This document shows, in pieces, positions 7,814-15,622 of a DNA stretch of 59,829 bases (within the stretch, counting starts at the first letter, position 1; each line of letters opens with the position of its first letter). Under the pieces are notes generated by a model. The model was given only the letters and a program-made list of their open reading frames with translations, ran no database searches and was not told the origin of the DNA. Origin of the DNA: Deltaproteobacteria bacterium (GTDB taxonomy: Bacteria > UBA10199 > DSSB01 > JACPFA01). Made by a program: the position numbers and the translations under genes. The DNA is taken from positions 1 through 59,829 of the forward strand of contig JACPFA010000011.1 in assembly GCA_016183235.1 (NCBI GenBank), read 5' to 3'.

Positions 7814-8194
7814 ATGGCCCTATGGAGATTCATTAAAATTTTTTTAGTCACGTTGGTTATTTTTATTATTTTTAATTTCTTGCTTTCTAACTTTAACAGC
7901 CAAACCCTTGGTTATAAAATAAGCTTTCATTTCGATATTCCACCTTTTATCTATTTAGAATCGGTTGATTTTCCCGTTGGGCTCTTATTGATTTCGGCTT
8001 TTTGTATCGGGATGATTACGGCGGGTTTGATGGGTTCGTTTAGTGTGTTTTATAAACAAAAAGACCTCAAGGCTAAAAACCGCATCATTCGTGAATTAGA
8101 AGCCGAAATGGAAGACTTACGCAGCCACTTACACCGCGAACACTATGTTCCGCCCGAACAAAAAATTAAAGATGAGTTGGATCGGCTTTCGTAA
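7814..8194 (+). CDS. LapA-like (DUF1049) inner-membrane protein
   Basis: 126 residues. Two hydrophobic segments (about 6-26 and 54-80) are followed by a charged coiled-coil tail (DLKAKNRIIRELEAEMEDLRS). This is the architecture of LapA/DUF1049 proteins, which in enterobacteria act with LapB to tune lipopolysaccharide synthesis. No lapB is next to it here. GAAAGGGGAG before ATG 7814 is a good ribosome-binding site. Confidence 0.72.
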   Translation: MALWRFIKIFLVTLVIFIIFNFLLSNFNSQTLGYKISFHFDIPPFIYLESVDFPVGLLLISAFCIGMITAGLMGSFSVFYKQKDLKAKNRIIRELEAEMEDLRSHLHREHYVPPEQKIKDELDRLS

Positions 8195-8200
8195 TTTAAT

Positions 8201-8296
8201 TGTCATTGCGATGGTATGAGATTGCTTCGGCAGGCTTGCCTCGCAATGACGAGGTCTCTGTCATTGCGAGCGCAGCGAAGCAATCTCACAATGACA
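8201..8296. repeat. TCATTGCGAG-type intergenic palindrome
   Basis: Paired inverted halves: GTCATTGCGA...GAGATTGCTTCG against CGAAGCAATCTCACAATGAC. Related units are at 11100, 20620, 26346, 36437, 39018 and 43264. The right end supplies the last three codons and the stop of the minus-strand gene that ends at 8286. Confidence 0.85.
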
Positions 8297-9323
8297 TTTG
8301 TCTAGTAACCTCGTCATAATCTTTTCCATATTTGCTAATGATACGTCGAAGGTTAGTAGAATTAACATCCACAAATTCCGAATCTGAGCGAAATTCTTTC
8401 ATGAGGCCCTCAATACTTAAACCCAACAATTCAGCAAGTTTGATAAAATGGCTCTCGGGTGCATAATCAATTTTGTATTTGCCACATAGGCGATCAAAGA
8501 TACTGGCCTGAGGGGGCTTTTTAAAAATGGGAAGGACAATATTCTTGGAGAGTTTTTCTAATTGAGCAAGGTTGATATGGGCCCATTGGTTCTGAGTTTG
8601 TAGCTCGGTGATCAGGTCTTCCAGACAAGTATTGCCAGCCCCTCGCCCAACCCCCATCAGGCTTGCATCGACCCAATCGACCCCTAGGGTAATCGCCGCA
8701 TAGGCATTGGTGTTGGCCAGTCCCAAATGGTTGTGGCCATGAAATCCAACTTGCGCATGATCAAGCTTTGATTTCATTTCTTCAATATAGGGTTTTAATT
8801 CTTCAGGTTTAAAACTTCCGTAGGTATCGACTAAATAAACAATATCGACCCCCATCAACTCAGCGCGGCGAGCCATATGCCCTACAAATTGCGGATCGCG
8901 GGCATGAGAGCGCACAAGCTGTAGTGAAACTTTTTTTGAAAACTTTTTTAACCGCTCGATAAATTTTTGAGCCAACTTGATTTCGTGAACATTCGCCCCC
9001 ACCCGGCCGATCTCAAAATAATCTTTCAATTGGTCAATCAGATCAAGGGTTGGATCATTAGGTGAAATAAACACGCTCAGCTTCAAATCAGGGGCAGCCT
9101 CTTTGACAGCCTGGAGTAATGCTTCATCTTTGGCAAGTGAGGGTATGCCTAACAAATAACTGCCAATGCCGCAGCCATGGCTGACCTCGGCATATGCAAT
9201 GCCAGCCTCATAAAGCCCCTTGCCTATTTTAGCCACATCTTCAGGTTTATATTGATGATTTAAAAGATAACTACCATCGCGAACCGTGACATCTAAGATG
9301 TTAAAGTTTTTAGACATAGTCAT
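8286..9323 (-). CDS. DmpG/MhpE-like aldolase (HMGL-like TIM barrel)
   Basis: 345 residues, DRE-TIM metallolyase superfamily. DVTVRDG (11-17) supplies the expected Arg15 and metal-ligand Asp16. GFHGHNHLGL gives metal ligands His195 and His197. EVSHGCG and VGRGAGNTCLE align with 4-hydroxy-2-oxovalerate aldolase (DmpG). The position of the DmpG catalytic His (RDGSH) is Tyr19 here. No acylating aldehyde dehydrogenase partner is nearby, so a classic meta-cleavage role is unlikely; a C-C lyase or synthase in another pathway is more plausible. It overlaps the upstream dehydrogenase-like gene by 14 bases. The last residues (MSL) are encoded inside an intergenic repeat. Confidence 0.8.
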   Translation of the reverse strand: MTMSKNFNILDVTVRDGSYLLNHQYKPEDVAKIGKGLYEAGIAYAEVSHGCGIGSYLLGIPSLAKDEALLQAVKEAAPDLKLSVFISPNDPTLDLIDQLKDYFEIGRVGANVHEIKLAQKFIERLKKFSKKVSLQLVRSHARDPQFVGHMARRAELMGVDIVYLVDTYGSFKPEELKPYIEEMKSKLDHAQVGFHGHNHLGLANTNAYAAITLGVDWVDASLMGVGRGAGNTCLEDLITELQTQNQWAHINLAQLEKLSKNIVLPIFKKPPQASIFDRLCGKYKIDYAPESHFIKLAELLGLSIEGLMKEFRSDSEFVDVNSTNLRRIISKYGKDYDEVTRQMSL

Positions 9324-10287
9324 AGTTTGGAATAGGATCGATCAGGGTTTCCCCAGCCAAATAGCGAGTTAAATTCATTCGAAAATGAGTGATGAGTTTT
9401 GTTAAAACATATTGATCATAACACGCAACATGAGGTGTGATGAGAAGATTGTCGAGTTCAAAAAAGGGATGAATGGGAGGCAAGGGTTGCATTTGAAAAC
9501 TATCCAGCACCGCAGCCGCAATGTCTTTGTATTTTAACATATTATAAAGATAAATTTCATCGAGCACCTGACCTAGGGATAAATTAATAAGACAAGCGGT
9601 TTCTTTCATTTGGGCTAATAGTTTGTCGCTAATGATCCCTTGAGTAGATGGGCAAAGCGGCAGCGCAATTAAGACATAATCGCTGTTCACAAAGATGGGT
9701 TTTAAATCGTCCAAATAAAATTCATCGAGTAAGGCAGTGTTGAGTGTTGGATTGATGTCACTGGCAATAACTTTCATGCCAAACATTTTTGCCTTTTTGG
9801 CGGTGGACTGACCCATGGCCCCAAACCCCACAATTCCTAACGTTTGGCCCATCAGCGAACGAATGCGATGTTTTTCAGGGAATTGACTCAAACTAAGCCA
9901 AGTCTTTTGTTGTTGCGCTGTGTACAGGGTGACAAATTGTTTGGCAAAGATTAACAAATAAGCCATCACCATTTCAGAGGCATTTTCAGCATAAACCGAG
10001 CGATTGTTTGTTAAAAAGACGCTTGAACGAAAGGCGGTTTCAGGAATTTGCCCACCCGTATGGGTTGTGGTTGTATGAAACCATTTTAACTGAAGGGTAT
10101 TTTGGGGAAAGCCCACTGGGAAGACATTGCTCCAAATAATTTCAGCACGACTCAGGTGATTAAAATATTCATCGACACTGCTAGCAATGACGAACTCCAT
10201 TTTGGAAAATTCTTTTTGAAGATCGGCCAACATCGATGGTGCAATGGTCACACTAGGGTCGGACTTTTGATGAAAGACAAGAATCAT
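9310..10287 (-). CDS. D-2-hydroxyacid dehydrogenase homologue lacking catalytic Arg and Glu
   Basis: 325 residues with the fold of NAD-dependent D-2-hydroxyacid dehydrogenases. The nucleotide loop GFGAMG is at 154-159, and the C-terminal ITPHV keeps the catalytic His286. The usual ARG motif, however, reads NLSLG, placing Leu238 where the substrate-binding Arg should be. The usual xEPLP reads MQPLP, placing Gln267 where the catalytic Glu should be. Normal hydroxyacid oxidation is therefore doubtful, and the protein may have a changed reaction or a binding role. It sits in the middle of a three-gene minus-strand operon with overlaps on both sides (4 bases upstream, 14 downstream). Confidence 0.8.
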   Translation of the reverse strand: MILVFHQKSDPSVTIAPSMLADLQKEFSKMEFVIASSVDEYFNHLSRAEIIWSNVFPVGFPQNTLQLKWFHTTTTHTGGQIPETAFRSSVFLTNNRSVYAENASEMVMAYLLIFAKQFVTLYTAQQQKTWLSLSQFPEKHRIRSLMGQTLGIVGFGAMGQSTAKKAKMFGMKVIASDINPTLNTALLDEFYLDDLKPIFVNSDYVLIALPLCPSTQGIISDKLLAQMKETACLINLSLGQVLDEIYLYNMLKYKDIAAAVLDSFQMQPLPPIHPFFELDNLLITPHVACYDQYVLTKLITHFRMNLTRYLAGETLIDPIPNYDYV

Positions 10288-11042
10288 ATTTTGCCAGGTT
10301 TGGGTTTTTTTAATTTTTTGATATCGATTACTTCACCTTTACCCTGGCGATGGGGATCTGCAATAGCTTCTTTAGTTTTAACAAGTACATCCTTTAAACT
10401 CTTGACCGTGGCTTTTTTAATATCCGTTTTATGGGTGAATTGACTTAGCTCTGGATTTTGATGAATTTTGACATTTTCTTGAACTTCTTGAGCACGCAGT
10501 GACTCTACATCTAATTCCAGCCTACGACGCGGTGAGGGGTAGAGTTCAAGGGTCTTGGCAAGGCTACGTAGCATCTCTTCGGTAAACTCGATTTCCCCTC
10601 TAGAGTTAGCTTTGGACATAATCGTGGTGTTGAATTGATTCCAAATAAATTTTGGATCCAGCGAGGTAGAGGGGATGAGACTATTTTCAAATATCCGTCT
10701 TAGACGTTCTAGCGTATATTTCCCTCGCCGCATTTTAAGGGGATCAAAGGGTTTGCCTACAATCTTGTGGTAACGGTATTTGCCTAATTCAATAATTTTT
10801 TTATGGTCAACATAAAAGGCACCATCTGGGCCCCGCAACGGTTCGAAGAATTCGTTGAGTGCTTTTAAGCTTACCCGTTCGGTATCGATGAGGCCTGATT
10901 GATAAAGGTAAGGGATATCATCGGGCAGGTAACGAATATAGTCTTTGCCTTCGCGCTTAACTTTTTGGACCTTTCGCCAAATATACTCCATGGCGAGCCG
11001 GTTAATAGCAATATAATCCTTCTCGGTAGGTTCTTTAGGCAT
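10284..11042 (-). CDS. protein of unknown function, first gene of a three-gene operon
   Basis: 252 residues, not recognised. Soluble, very basic and charged throughout, with no signal peptide or membrane segment. Helical stretches rich in Lys/Arg/Glu alternate with hydrophobic turns (YIRYLPDDIPYLYQSGLI, FFEPLRGPDG). The C-terminal 40 residues are low-complexity and Lys-rich (DIKKLKKPKPGKI). It overlaps the dehydrogenase homologue by ATGA, so its product is probably needed with it. It could bind nucleic acid or act as a scaffold; this is a guess from charge only. Confidence 0.65.
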   Translation of the reverse strand: MPKEPTEKDYIAINRLAMEYIWRKVQKVKREGKDYIRYLPDDIPYLYQSGLIDTERVSLKALNEFFEPLRGPDGAFYVDHKKIIELGKYRYHKIVGKPFDPLKMRRGKYTLERLRRIFENSLIPSTSLDPKFIWNQFNTTIMSKANSRGEIEFTEEMLRSLAKTLELYPSPRRRLELDVESLRAQEVQENVKIHQNPELSQFTHKTDIKKATVKSLKDVLVKTKEAIADPHRQGKGEVIDIKKLKKPKPGKI

Positions 11043-11099
11043 AGTAGGCTAATTTTGGCTGGAAAGGGTCCACGAAGCAAGGAAAAAGCTAATTCGATA

Positions 11100-11135
11100 T
11101 CATTGCGATCCGCCTTTGGCGGAGAAGCAATCTGA
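11100..11135. repeat. short TCATTGCGA...GAAGCAATCT repeat
   Basis: Compact copy of the TCATTGCGAG family with its own inner stem CCGCC/GGCGG. It lies between the 11042 operon promoter side and the first of the three tandem small genes. Confidence 0.6.
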
Positions 11136-11136
11136 T

Positions 11137-11562
11137 TTAGCTCAACACAACATCACCCGAGCTATCGTAATTGGCATCTACTCCCTCAAAACCATAATCA
11201 TACTCTTCGTTAGTCACAGCAAATTCGGTTGTTTCAGGGGTATAATAGGTTTGAAGCAAGGCCCATTGGGCGGCGTCGATTTCTCTTTCGCTGGCCAACT
11301 CTTTTTCAAACTCTTGTTCATCTCGGGCGAGGATCATGGCTTCCGTCTCTTTATCGATATCATAGCCATGTCTTTCCGCATCGGCCTGCTGTTTAGACGC
11401 TTCAACTTGGGCGATTCGAGCTTGATCAGCCGTATATTTTTGGGCCTCAGCATTGATTCTAGCAGTTTCTTTAGAAGCTTCTGAGACTACGACTGCTACT
11501 ACGGTGCCAGCAACGGCTACGACAGCAACAACGGTAATAAGGACAGCAGCACTGATAACCAT
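11137..11562 (-). CDS. tandem paralogue 1: membrane-anchored small protein, unknown function
   Basis: 141 residues. The N-terminal hydrophobic segment (about 2-27) has no positive charge before it. An Ala/Glu/Gln-rich helical region follows (ASKETARINAEAQKYTADQA, then DEQEFEKELASER), and the acidic aromatic C-terminus contains AAQWALLQTYYTPET, EEYDYGFEGVDA and YDSSGDV. The start is ATG 11562, with AAAGGAG 8 bases upstream. The two neighbours share the whole region after the membrane segment almost residue for residue, whereas the membrane segments differ. The function is not recognised; a membrane-tethered structural, sensor or substrate protein is possible. Confidence 0.75.
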   Translation of the reverse strand: MVISAAVLITVVAVVAVAGTVVAVVVSEASKETARINAEAQKYTADQARIAQVEASKQQADAERHGYDIDKETEAMILARDEQEFEKELASEREIDAAQWALLQTYYTPETTEFAVTNEEYDYGFEGVDANYDSSGDVVLS

Positions 11563-11641
11563 AGGAAGACTCCTTTTACAAAGTCCCCCCATAATTAAGT
11601 TCTAAATGGATTATCTTCGATTTTAGCAGGTAGAGTTGCGT

Positions 11642-12097
11642 TTAGCCTAAAATCACATCGCCATCGCTATCATAACTGGCATCAACACCTTCAAAACCGT
11701 AGTCGTATTCTTCGTTAATAGCTGAAAATTCAGCGGTTTCTGGGGTGTAATAGGTTTGAAGCAAGGCCCATTGAGCGGCATCGATTTCTTTTTCGCTAGC
11801 CAATTCTTTTTCGAATTCTTGTTCATCTCGGGCGAGGATCATTCCTTCAGTGTCTTTGTCGATATTGTAGCCATGTTTTTCCGCATCGGCCTGCTTGGTA
11901 GCGGCTTCAACTTGGGCGATTCTAGCTTGATCGGCAGTGTGTTTTTGGGCCTCGGCGTTGGTTTCAGCCGTTTCTTTTGAAGCCTCAGTGACAACAACAG
12001 CAGTGGCAATCCCAGCGATTGCCACAACAGTCACACCAGCAGCAATAACGCTGGCCGTAAGAGTTGCGGTAGTAGAGACAGCAATGAAAACAACCAT
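11642..12097 (-). CDS. tandem paralogue 2: membrane-anchored small protein, unknown function
   Basis: 151 residues and the longest hydrophobic N-terminus of the three (about 1-38). After ASKETAETNAEA it matches paralogues 1 and 3: DQARIAQVEA, QADAEKHGYNIDKDTEGMI, EIDAAQWALLQTYYTPET and an acidic tail ending GDVILG. ATG 12097 is preceded by AGGAAGGA. The tail YDSDGDVIL resembles Asp-rich calcium loops, but not closely enough to call one. Gaps of about 80 and 60 bases separate the three genes, so they could form one transcript or have separate promoters. Confidence 0.75.
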   Translation of the reverse strand: MVVFIAVSTTATLTASVIAAGVTVVAIAGIATAVVVTEASKETAETNAEAQKHTADQARIAQVEAATKQADAEKHGYNIDKDTEGMILARDEQEFEKELASEKEIDAAQWALLQTYYTPETAEFSAINEEYDYGFEGVDASYDSDGDVILG

Positions 12098-12158
12098 AGG
12101 GTCCTTCCTAGGGGTCAGACCCCTTTGAATTCCATCCTATACTGACACACGATCAAAA

Positions 12159-12572
12159 TTAGCCTAAAATCACATCGCCCTCGCTATCATAACTGGCCTC
12201 AACACCTTCGAAACCATAGTCGTATTCTTCGCTAATAGCTGAAAATTCAGCGGTTTCTGGGGTGTAATAGGTTTGAAGCAAGGCCCATTGGGCGGCATCA
12301 ATTTCTTTTTCGCTGGCCAGTTCTTTTTCAAATTCTCGTTCGTCTTGGGCGAGGATCATTCCTTCAGTTTCTTTGTCGATATTGTAGCCATGTTTTTCCG
12401 CATCGGCCTGCTTGGTAGCGGCTTCAACTTGGGCGATTCTAGCTTGATCAGCCGTGTATTTTTGGGCCTCGGCGTTAGTTTTGGCGGTTTCTTTGCTGGC
12501 TTCAGTAACAATGACAGTTGTAACGATCGCACCAACCACAACAATAGCAGCAACAGCGATATAAATGACCAT
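12159..12572 (-). CDS. tandem paralogue 3: membrane-anchored small protein, unknown function
   Basis: 137 residues. One membrane segment (about 2-22), then the shared helical domain and the C-terminal block AAQWALLQTYYTPET ... EEYDYGFEGVEASYD ... GDVILG. It is closer to paralogue 2 than to paralogue 1, so the tandem array probably grew by duplication. ATG 12572 has GGGGGG 4 bases upstream; an upstream in-frame ATG at 12608 would add 12 residues of unlikely sequence. Divergent from the radical SAM gene, whose start lies about 160-240 bases away. Confidence 0.75.
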   Translation of the reverse strand: MVIYIAVAAIVVVGAIVTTVIVTEASKETAKTNAEAQKYTADQARIAQVEAATKQADAEKHGYNIDKETEGMILAQDEREFEKELASEKEIDAAQWALLQTYYTPETAEFSAISEEYDYGFEGVEASYDSEGDVILG

Positions 12573-12814
12573 AATTCCCCCCAATTCTAGATCCAAATAA
12601 CAAAACAAACTCTAAGGGAGTTATCTTTAGTTCAGCGACTTGAAGTTGCTTCAAATGACCTTATTTTGAGCACACTAGACGCTTTATTTAAAAAGAAGAG
12701 CCAGCATCAAACTAGTATGACGGAGGAACAAATTTGCTAGTAATTTCAAATAATTATAACCTAGCAACTCTACCCCAAGCCAGACCCGAAAACCTCAAGG
12801 GAGTCATGTATCTT

Positions 12815-14173
12815 ATGAAAATAGGGTTTATTACCGCCATTCGCGAAGATCATACCAAGCCCTTTGAGAGGGTCATCAAAAGGTATTCCACCAATTTAGG
12901 GCCCATGTATTTAGCGGCCTATTTAGAAAAGACTCATCCTGAAGTTGAAGTGCAGATTAAAGATCGGTTGGCAGATTTTGGTCAGTTTAATCCTGATGTC
13001 TTAGGGGTTTCGTCTGTTACTGAGAATTTTGAATATGCCAAGTGGTTGGCCCGTAAGGCCAAGGCCAAGTGGGGTTGTTTGACGGTTCTGGGTGGAGTGC
13101 ATTTAACCAGTTTGCCCCATACTTTACCTGCGGAATTTGATCTTGGGGTCATCGGTGAGGGTGAAGAAACTTTTTCCCAGTTGGTTGGTTTGTTAAAACA
13201 AAAACCTCTATTACAAATTGATTTTTCTAATTTCCCCGGAGTGGTTTATCGCAAGGCCGGTAAAGTAATCGTCAATCCCAAACGATCGGCCATTGCTTGT
13301 TTAGACGACATTCCCCGTCCTAAACGAGAAAAATTTGTTCAAACCATGGGGATGCCTTACATGATGACCTCGCGGGGTTGCCCTTATAATTGTTCATTTT
13401 GTGTCATTCCCAATGTTACCAGTGGTTATCGGGTGCATTCACCCGAATATGTGGTGGAAGAAATTAAGGCCATTCAAAACCACTTCCCAGAGGTTAAGCA
13501 TATTCGGTTTTTTGATGATCTTTTTATTGTGCAACGCGGGCGGGTTGAAAAGATTGCAGAGTTGATCCACGCTGAGGGTCTGGATAAAAAACTATCGTTT
13601 AGTTGCTGGGGCCGCGCCAATCTCATTGATGATGCGATGGTCAAAACCTTTAAAAAGATGAATATGAAGTATGTCGCCTTTGGGGCTGAGTCGGGCTCCA
13701 GCCGCATGATGGCGCAAATTAAACCGGGCTCTAGTGTTGAGCTCAATCAAAAAGCCATTGATTATTTGTATGATGAAGGCATTCATCCGGCTTGTTCAAT
13801 CTTAATGGGTCATCCCTTGGAACAAGAAGAAGACTTGCGAGCCACCCATGAATTTTTAACTCATAATCTGGCTAAACTTTCTCAGGTTGAATTGAATGTA
13901 TCCATCCCTTGGCCAGGCACCGCTTTATGGCAAGAGGGTAAAAAGTTAGGCCTCGTTCATGATTTTATGGATTTTAGTATCTTAAAAGAAGCGGCTTTCT
14001 TTCCCAATTATAACACTGAAGAATTTCCCTATTTGAATCGAAATATTAACCCCAAACGATTCATGGAAATCATGGGCGAATTTAAAACCCTTTACAATGT
14101 GATTTATCAACGACCTGGTTCAAATCAGGTATTCACAGAGATGAATCCTACAGGCGAGGCCAAGTATTTATAG
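12815..14173 (+). CDS. B12-binding-domain radical SAM protein
   Basis: 452 residues from ATG 12815. The N-terminal ~150 residues resemble a cobalamin-binding domain (NLGPMYLAAYLEKTHP, DVLGVSSVTENFEYAKWLA, VLGGVHLTSLP, GVIGEGEETF). The radical SAM core has the [4Fe-4S] motif SRGCPYNCSFC (Cys189, Cys193, Cys196) and FGAESGSSRMM. Members of this class catalyse methylations, ring closures or rearrangements on small molecules or peptides; the substrate is unknown. A TTG at 12734 with a strong GGAGGA 7 bases upstream would add 27 residues and is a real alternative. Neighbours (three tandem small proteins, a Gly/Ala-rich small protein) make a substrate relationship worth testing. Confidence 0.88.
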   Translation: MKIGFITAIREDHTKPFERVIKRYSTNLGPMYLAAYLEKTHPEVEVQIKDRLADFGQFNPDVLGVSSVTENFEYAKWLARKAKAKWGCLTVLGGVHLTSLPHTLPAEFDLGVIGEGEETFSQLVGLLKQKPLLQIDFSNFPGVVYRKAGKVIVNPKRSAIACLDDIPRPKREKFVQTMGMPYMMTSRGCPYNCSFCVIPNVTSGYRVHSPEYVVEEIKAIQNHFPEVKHIRFFDDLFIVQRGRVEKIAELIHAEGLDKKLSFSCWGRANLIDDAMVKTFKKMNMKYVAFGAESGSSRMMAQIKPGSSVELNQKAIDYLYDEGIHPACSILMGHPLEQEEDLRATHEFLTHNLAKLSQVELNVSIPWPGTALWQEGKKLGLVHDFMDFSILKEAAFFPNYNTEEFPYLNRNINPKRFMEIMGEFKTLYNVIYQRPGSNQVFTEMNPTGEAKYL

Positions 14174-14230
14174 CAACTTCGAACTCAAAGGGTGACGATA
14201 CAACCTTTAGAAACTATTGAGGAGGATTTT

Positions 14231-14572
14231 ATGCCAGGACCAGCTTTAGCAGGAATTATAGGTGCAGTAGCCCCAGAAGTAGCCAATACATTAGGTTTAG
14301 GTGGTGCAGCTGAAGGTGCCGGGGCTGCCGCCAAGACAAAGGGTGTTAAACCAGAAGGCGGAGGAGATGCAGCTGCGAAGAAGGTATCGGGTGAGGCTTT
14401 AAAGACGGCACAGGCTTCAATGGATAAAAGTGTTGATCAAGCCTGGGCTGGCCTGAATGGAGAAGTTGAAAAATCGCGCGGTGCCATGGCCAATCCCAAA
14501 TCCAGTGCCCCCGAAAAAGACAATGGTGCCTTCGCTGCCACCATGGATTCTGCAGGCGCTAAACCCGCTTAA
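14231..14572 (+). CDS. small Gly/Ala-rich protein, unknown function
   Basis: 113 residues. ATG 14231 has an excellent GAGGAGG 6 bases upstream. The hydrophobic Gly/Ala-rich N-terminus (PALAGIIGAVAPEVANTLGL) is followed by a low-complexity hydrophilic region (EGAGAAAKTKGVKPEGGG, EKSRGAMANPKSSAPEKD). No recognisable domain. It follows the radical SAM gene by 57 bases and is closed by a rho-independent terminator, so the two probably form one transcription unit. It could be a structural or secreted small protein, or a substrate for the radical SAM enzyme; neither is shown by sequence. Confidence 0.65.
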   Translation: MPGPALAGIIGAVAPEVANTLGLGGAAEGAGAAAKTKGVKPEGGGDAAAKKVSGEALKTAQASMDKSVDQAWAGLNGEVEKSRGAMANPKSSAPEKDNGAFAATMDSAGAKPA

Positions 14573-14610: not shown

Positions 14611-14647
14611 CCCCTTCTACGATCCGTTTGTGGAAGGGGTTTTTTTA
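14611..14647 (+). terminator. rho-independent terminator
   Basis: Stem CCCCTTC / GAAGGGG with a 15-nt loop, followed by TTTTTTT. It ends the radical SAM/small-protein unit before the GTPase gene. Confidence 0.85.
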
Positions 14648-14677: not shown

Positions 14678-15622
14678 ATGCGTTCCATGGACGCACTTCT
14701 AAAAAAGTTTTTAAAGCACGATCGCTTAGCCTTGTCACGGTTGGTTTCTGTGGTTGAAAATCGCTCTGATCAATTGGCAAAGATCATGGATGCCATTCAT
14801 GATCGGGTTCGTAATACCTCGGTGTTAGGTATTACCGGGCCACCGGGGGCAGGCAAATCGACCCTGGTTAATCAGCTTATCCTCCAAATTCGCAAAAAAG
14901 GTCAAAAAGTAGGTGTTATTGCGATTGATCCATCAAGCCCTTTTTCTGGCGGGGCGGTGTTAGGGGATCGTATTCGCATGCAAGACCATGTGGGTGATGA
15001 GGGGGTGTTTATTCGCAGCCTAGGCAGCCGTGGAGCTCATGGTGGGCTTTCTAGGGCCACACAAGATATTGTACGGTTGTTTGATGCCTTTGGTATGGAT
15101 TGGGTGATTGTAGAAACCGTGGGGGTGGGGCAAACCGAGTTTGATATTATGGAAATTGCCAGTACCACGGTCGTGGTTTTGACTCCAGAATCGGGGGATA
15201 CCGTTCAAACCATGAAGGCCGGGCTTTTAGAAGTGGCGGACATCTTTGTGGTGAATAAGGCCGACCGTGAAGGAGCTGATAAAATTGTTTTAGAATTGAA
15301 AAGCATGGTTCACATGGGGTCGGGTCAACAAAACAATAGTTGGGAAGTTCCTGTTTTGTCAATGCAGGCGGTGAATGGTGTTGGCATATCAGAACTCTTT
15401 GAACAAATCGAAAAACATGAAGAAACTGTTAGGACAGGTGGTCAATATACAGAGCGAATCTCTAAAATTCGTTGCCAGGAGTTCAAAGACATTTTGCTGG
15501 AAAACTTCAATAAACAATTAGAAGAAAAATTTCAAAAAGATCCCCGTTACCTTCAATTAAAACAGCAAGTAGAGTCCGGGGAAATGAGCCCTTATACGGC
15601 TGCTAGCCAACTTAAAGTTTGA
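14678..15622 (+). CDS. meaB: MeaB/ArgK-type GTPase (B12-enzyme chaperone)
   Basis: 314 residues. G3E-family P-loop GTPase: Walker A GPPGAGKST, DPSSPFSGGAVLGDRIRM, ETVGVGQTE (switch region) and NKAD for guanine recognition. Family members load and protect adenosylcobalamin-dependent mutases such as methylmalonyl-CoA mutase. No mutase subunit is encoded in this window, but a B12-binding radical SAM protein is the upstream neighbour, separated by a terminator. ATG 14678 or ATG 14687 could be the start. The 3' end overlaps the convergent gene by 11 bases. Confidence 0.9.
   Translation: MRSMDALLKKFLKHDRLALSRLVSVVENRSDQLAKIMDAIHDRVRNTSVLGITGPPGAGKSTLVNQLILQIRKKGQKVGVIAIDPSSPFSGGAVLGDRIRMQDHVGDEGVFIRSLGSRGAHGGLSRATQDIVRLFDAFGMDWVIVETVGVGQTEFDIMEIASTTVVVLTPESGDTVQTMKAGLLEVADIFVVNKADREGADKIVLELKSMVHMGSGQQNNSWEVPVLSMQAVNGVGISELFEQIEKHEETVRTGGQYTERISKIRCQEFKDILLENFNKQLEEKFQKDPRYLQLKQQVESGEMSPYTAASQLKV

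Follow-up and report, generated by a model that had tools for sequence, protein, structure and literature searches.

A class-restricted basic protein and its membrane-anchored small proteins share a locus with aldolase, dehydrogenase and B12-radical SAM genes

Do genes that lie side by side but are foreign to the housekeeping blocks around them belong to one system? The question is raised by a 59,829-nucleotide stretch (the window; positions 1 to 59,829 of contig JACPFA010000011.1, assembly GCA_016183235.1) from a Deltaproteobacteria bacterium (GTDB lineage Bacteria; UBA10199; DSSB01; JACPFA01), whose genome comprises 51 contigs and is 98% complete. An earlier note took eight of its open reading frames for an undescribed biosynthetic or protein-modification cluster. 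All eight are present at the positions given below, and the same gene set recurs in relatives, so that it is more than a chance neighbourhood. The locus is built of two layers, a core of a basic protein (Bas) with small proteins (SPs) and a set of accessory enzymes, plus one bystander, the GTPase MeaB. The reading we prefer, at a probability of roughly 0.4, is a class-specific island in which the Bas/SP membrane pair is combined with enzymes that would make or tailor a small molecule of the 2-oxo/2-hydroxy-acid type.

Bas (10284–11042, minus strand) has a pI of 9.7 and finds nothing convincing in Pfam or NCBIfam, in agreement with its description in the note as a basic protein of no known family. 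Its profile matches 39 of the class's 46 genomes; the 339 other genomes searched give no match. In most loci the gene occupies a fixed site directly after rpsA–HIT–LapA, and the gene of the LapA-domain protein (7814–8194 in the window, plus strand) is the island's left border in most of the class. The AlphaFold model of Bas (pLDDT 89, with a less certain C-terminal part) has no match at E ≤ 0.001 in PDB or viral structure libraries, and on this model the fold seems to be new. Assignment to a known fold was rejected, as the top listed matches are loose, mostly EF-hand-like and with TM-scores below 0.4; a phage origin was likewise set aside, with PHROGs giving noise only. Neither Bas nor the small proteins have relatives in the libraries used. 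A divergent paralogue, Bas2, is found in the window genome at C21:75578-76243 (L143:8501-9253) and also in L064 and L144–L147. It lies between dnaJ and dnaK in five relatives from the same order, where small proteins are absent beside it, and for this reason Bas2 is uninformative here.

Most loci carry, immediately upstream of Bas and in the same orientation, one to four genes for small helical proteins; the window has three, SP3 (12159–12572), SP2 (11642–12097) and SP1 (11137–11562), all on the minus strand, with ribosome-binding sites favouring starts at 12572, 12097 and 11562. These small acidic proteins are 70–77% identical and are predicted to have a hydrophobic, membrane-anchoring N-terminus, a long helix and a disordered tail (EYDYGFEG in SP1); the structure model is weak (pLDDT 61) and was used for the helix and the tail only. 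SP sequences drift between loci, and a C-terminal aromatic-x-aromatic-Gly signature recurs. The pattern [YW]x[YW]G occurs in 27 of 264 same-strand upstream reading frames, where shuffling the tails leads one to expect 2.7 (maximum 8 in 300), and in 2 of 186 opposite-strand frames, a contrast that is somewhat inflated because the motif was picked after viewing the tails and related genomes were counted singly. With a profile of the three window SPs, homologues turn up in five of the order's seven other genomes; no other genome in the initial trial yielded any. When the order's SP profile was searched blind to gene position, it picked out neighbours of Bas in two further families (G022, 4e-8; G034, 0.008). 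The charges of the pair are mostly opposite, a basic Bas going with acidic small proteins (Spearman −0.54 between their pI values, p 0.005, 25 loci, uncorrected for relatedness and including the contig-truncated Bas of L121). Bas and the small proteins are thus inherited together, at a site that is mostly fixed.

Such a pair might belong to the non-flagellar type III secretion system of the class, with Bas as a gatekeeper- or chaperone-like protein and the SPs as exported components. The window genome does encode a true SctV (TIGR01399, 783.9 bits, cut-off 692.25), SctJ and an SctY-like chaperone, FHIPEP-family genes occur in 44 of the 46 class genomes, and three of 29 Bas members match T3SS_CopN_3rd weakly. 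The best of these matches (E 0.018) is at noise level, however, and no SctW/CopN-type gatekeeper is among the structural matches listed for Bas. Bas and the secretion genes are on separate contigs, one genome (G033) has Bas and no FHIPEP match, and the joint presence of the two is uninformative because both are near-universal in the class. We regard a role in secretion as quite improbable. The secretion locus itself (C42:80000-95600, L104) holds SctV, SctJ, the SctY-like chaperone and FHA/YscD-type proteins, and adjoins argJ- and secA-like genes.

The enzyme layer starts on the minus strand with AldA (8286–9323; Pfam HMGL-like, 2.6e-37), which the earlier note had rightly described as a DmpG-like aldolase with its catalytic His replaced: RDGSH of DmpG (PDB 1nvm) aligns with RDGSY, and the metal ligands Asp16, His195 and His197 are retained in the same alignment. 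Among AldA relatives the residue after RDGS is always Tyr or Phe and never the catalytic His, and the aligned metal site of every full-length row is Asp or Glu, His and His. AldA thus shares with the 4-hydroxy-2-oxovalerate aldolases (DmpG/BphI, TIGR03217, PDB 1nvm and 8ih7) the DRE-TIM barrel, the RDG loop and the Asp/His/His ligands. Unlike them, it has an aromatic residue for the His throughout, no acetaldehyde dehydrogenase partner is seen, and it scores below the cut-offs of its best NCBIfam models, PRK08195 and 4OH_2_O_val_ald (160.4 bits against a curated 286 for TIGR03217). We infer an aldol chemistry based on the metal and the Tyr. AldA with an RDG/REG-aromatic loop occurs in 18 genomes of the class, with a weak match in G022.

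DH (9310–10287, minus strand) resembles D-2-hydroxyacid dehydrogenases (PF02826; PDB 5mh5, 6bii) in its NAD-binding domain (155.3 bits, Pfam cut-off 25.1) and its catalytic His. It differs from them in that the window copy has lost two members of the catalytic triad, as the note had it, with Arg replaced by Leu (INLSLG) and Glu by Gln (QMQP), and in that its relatives are fused to the aldolase in three genomes. There (G013, G038 and G045), AldA and DH form one protein of 679–760 residues (L060:2653-4935, L121:2119-4158 and L124:2093-4201), and the DH part has a complete Arg/Glu/His triad in G038 and G045. The loci of relatives within the order have no DH; in its place stands AldB, a second aldolase copy that has lost the metal ligands.

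On the opposite strand lies rSAM1 (12815–14173, plus strand, with the start placed by homology; the longest reading frame begins at TTG 12734). The claim that it is a B12-binding radical SAM enzyme holds: it has the CxxxCxxC motif, and both the Radical_SAM domain (7.8e-21, 75.4 bits, cut-off 29.5) and the B12-binding domain (1.6e-12, 47.8 bits, cut-off 32.1) score above their Pfam cut-offs. It shares these features with HpnJ, the TIGR04013 group, OxsB, TokK and CysS. It differs from them in falling below every equivalog cut-off, in forming a subfamily of its own and in adjoining a DmpG-like aldolase; among the named NCBIfam groups (HpnJ, ApyD, BchE, TIGR04013 and others) it belongs to none, with a best score of 125 bits against 577.6. 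Ten class genomes carry rSAM1, and in nine of them it is less than 4 kb from AldA, the tenth (G005) being interrupted by a contig end. Outside the class, rSAM1-like genes occur in 12 of 339 genomes, and AldA is absent from all ten neighbourhoods read; there (L088–L097), the nearest relatives of rSAM1 mostly have glycosyltransferase or membrane-glycan genes as neighbours. In some relatives the enzymes are accompanied by two to four more B12-radical SAM genes (L020:435-6715, L018:14033-16889, L051:11391-15986), and the product of L051:11391-12590 is a radical SAM protein with an HMPTM zinc ribbon. The Gly/Ala-rich small protein GA that follows rSAM1 (14231–14572, plus strand) has an intact reading frame, for which ATG 14231 is the better start. 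It is weakly conserved, and comparable low-complexity frames come after rSAM1 in G007, G004 and G005.

How tightly the two layers are joined depends on the lineage. Within the order of the window genome, the island is present or absent as a whole, with six genomes having it and two lacking it: G002, which is 100% complete, jointly misses the SPs, rSAM1 and AldA, as does the incomplete G006. Loci of relatives in the order consist of one or two SPs, Bas, AldA and AldB, from which rSAM1 and MeaB diverge, and lie upstream of thrS-infC-rpmI-rplT-pheS-pheT. The expected co-occurrence of the small-protein family with this radical SAM subfamily is borne out there, as rSAM1 is nearby in all six genomes with order-type SPs. 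Across the class, AldA is near Bas in 14 of the 15 genomes that hold both, spanning seven families. In 12 of the 15 the two share a contig and are no more than about 12 kb apart; for G005 and G038 the linkage is inferred across contig breaks, because both genes lie near contig ends in matching contexts. The exception is G021. It belongs to a family, f14, in which a DH–rSAM1–AldA trio is either separated from Bas (G021) or found in a genome with no detected Bas (G040). Most genomes with Bas have neither rSAM1 nor AldA. The small proteins are therefore regularly found without the enzymes, an outcome that the earlier note had named as fatal to its cluster, but not without Bas, and the notion of one single pathway is not supported, given the enzyme-free loci of most of the class and the f14 trio.

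The same facts could mean that the layers have no functional link at all, the Bas/SP pair and a small-molecule enzyme module merely occupying one permissive site flanked by LapA and MeaB. The enzyme-free Bas/SP loci that prevail in the class, and the f14 enzymes elsewhere, fit this; nearby housekeeping genes likewise keep their order, and beyond the class the closest relatives of the rSAM1 type are mostly in glycosyltransferase clusters without AldA. The position of the aldolase could be partly inertia, since MeaB, LapA and HIT also stay near Bas by conserved gene order. Against mere co-residence stand the overlapping frames of the minus-strand genes in the window (4 nt for Bas/DH, 14 nt for DH/AldA), the 1-nt overlap of Bas and AldA in G008, the gaps of 2–15 nt in G012 and family f2, the presence of AldA beside Bas on either side of rpsA, and the all-or-none loss in the order. 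We consider an absence of any link somewhat unlikely. The Bas tree follows families, and the aldolase-linked Bas genes are scattered over several clades; the association therefore either is ancient with frequent losses or arose repeatedly. A separate subfamily of aldolase-coupled Bas proteins was considered and is not seen in the tree.

If the layers are linked, the SPs could be substrates. B12-radical SAM enzymes modify peptides in known systems, and in a RiPP-like arrangement rSAM1, with other enzymes, would modify the aromatic/acidic SP tails. In line with this, rSAM1 is present in every genome with order-type SPs, oriented divergently from them, and G004 has a Trp halogenase and Trp in the tail. 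The small proteins next to a B12-radical SAM gene recall RiPP clusters of this kind (ApyD, TIGR03975), but the island SPs differ in being long and membrane-anchored. They also differ in having a tail that is conserved without the enzyme: [YW]x[YW]G-type tails occur beside Bas in seven genomes that lack rSAM1 and AldA (G009, G018, G019, G020, G023, G034 and G044), and a looser form in G014. The tail thus does not track with the modifying enzyme as a precursor core would, and the suggestion that the radical SAM enzyme modifies the aromatic tails is weakened. Moreover, every RiPP radical SAM model scores rSAM1 below its cut-off, f14 has rSAM1 and AldA together away from Bas, and neither a peptidase nor an exporter is seen within the island. 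Modification of the SPs is unlikely overall; in this lineage a protein-modification model is possible, with the tail no longer counted in its support.

MeaB (14678–15622, plus strand; TIGR00750, 332.2 bits, cut-off 240.75) had been proposed as a partner of the B12 enzyme. It neighbours the locus also where the radical SAM and aldolase genes are absent (e.g. L058, L062, L066, L068, L129–L131, L133 and L136). Methylmalonyl-CoA mutase is present in 41 of the 46 class genomes, with three matches in the window genome, and an intrinsic terminator read in the sequence (CCCCTTC...GAAGGGG followed by T7; 14611–14646, plus strand) separates rSAM1–GA from MeaB. On these three grounds we reject MeaB as a partner and judge it to belong to the class-wide surroundings. 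It would serve the mutase, outside the system.

The preferred two-layer reading goes beyond the observed co-occurrence, gene coupling, fusion and residue patterns of the enzymes in the following way. Soluble Bas would bind the membrane-anchored, mostly oppositely charged SPs through their helical part or their aromatic-Gly tail and organise them at the membrane. AldA, as a divalent-metal aldolase with Tyr for His, would make or cleave a 4-hydroxy-2-oxo acid, DH (complete in relatives, degenerate here) would handle the 2-oxo group, and rSAM1 would methylate or rearrange an unactivated carbon. The product may be a small molecule, or a group put on one, and in those lineages the Bas/SP layer would carry, sense or display it. 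This textbook order of reactions may not hold here, because the window DH lacks two catalytic residues and AldB replaces DH in relatives, and the link between the layers is the weakest step. Tailoring-type genes also appear in single loci, such as a carbamoyltransferase (G008), a TylF-like methyltransferase (G012) and the Trp halogenase of G004, as do an HpcH/HpaI aldolase (G015) and further radical SAM genes (G027, G028).

The boldest reading, itself doubtful, is that Bas and the tail-bearing SPs are an undescribed, class-defining membrane system on a new fold, decorated or loaded by lineage-specific tailoring enzymes (aldolase–dehydrogenase, B12-radical SAM, carbamoyltransferase, halogenase, methyltransferase). 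The enzyme families are already known, and the whole may best be called a tailoring cluster yet to be characterised; that the Bas/SP pair is new in kind is less likely. We know of no description of the enzyme combination or of the AldA–DH fusion, and literature searches returned nothing on the combination, the fusion or these proteins. The locus offers a conserved class-wide protein pair without known fold or function, in a lineage known here from metagenome-assembled genomes only, and a natural aldolase–dehydrogenase fusion tied to B12-radical SAM chemistry. Novel enzyme chemistry or a novel membrane assembly could come from either, and with so few genes the whole set could be expressed. Finally, similar short intergenic stretches (of the cattgcga... 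/ agaagcaatct type) flank the Bas–DH–AldA operon at 8205–8290 and 11095–11130 and are possibly a dispersed repeat.
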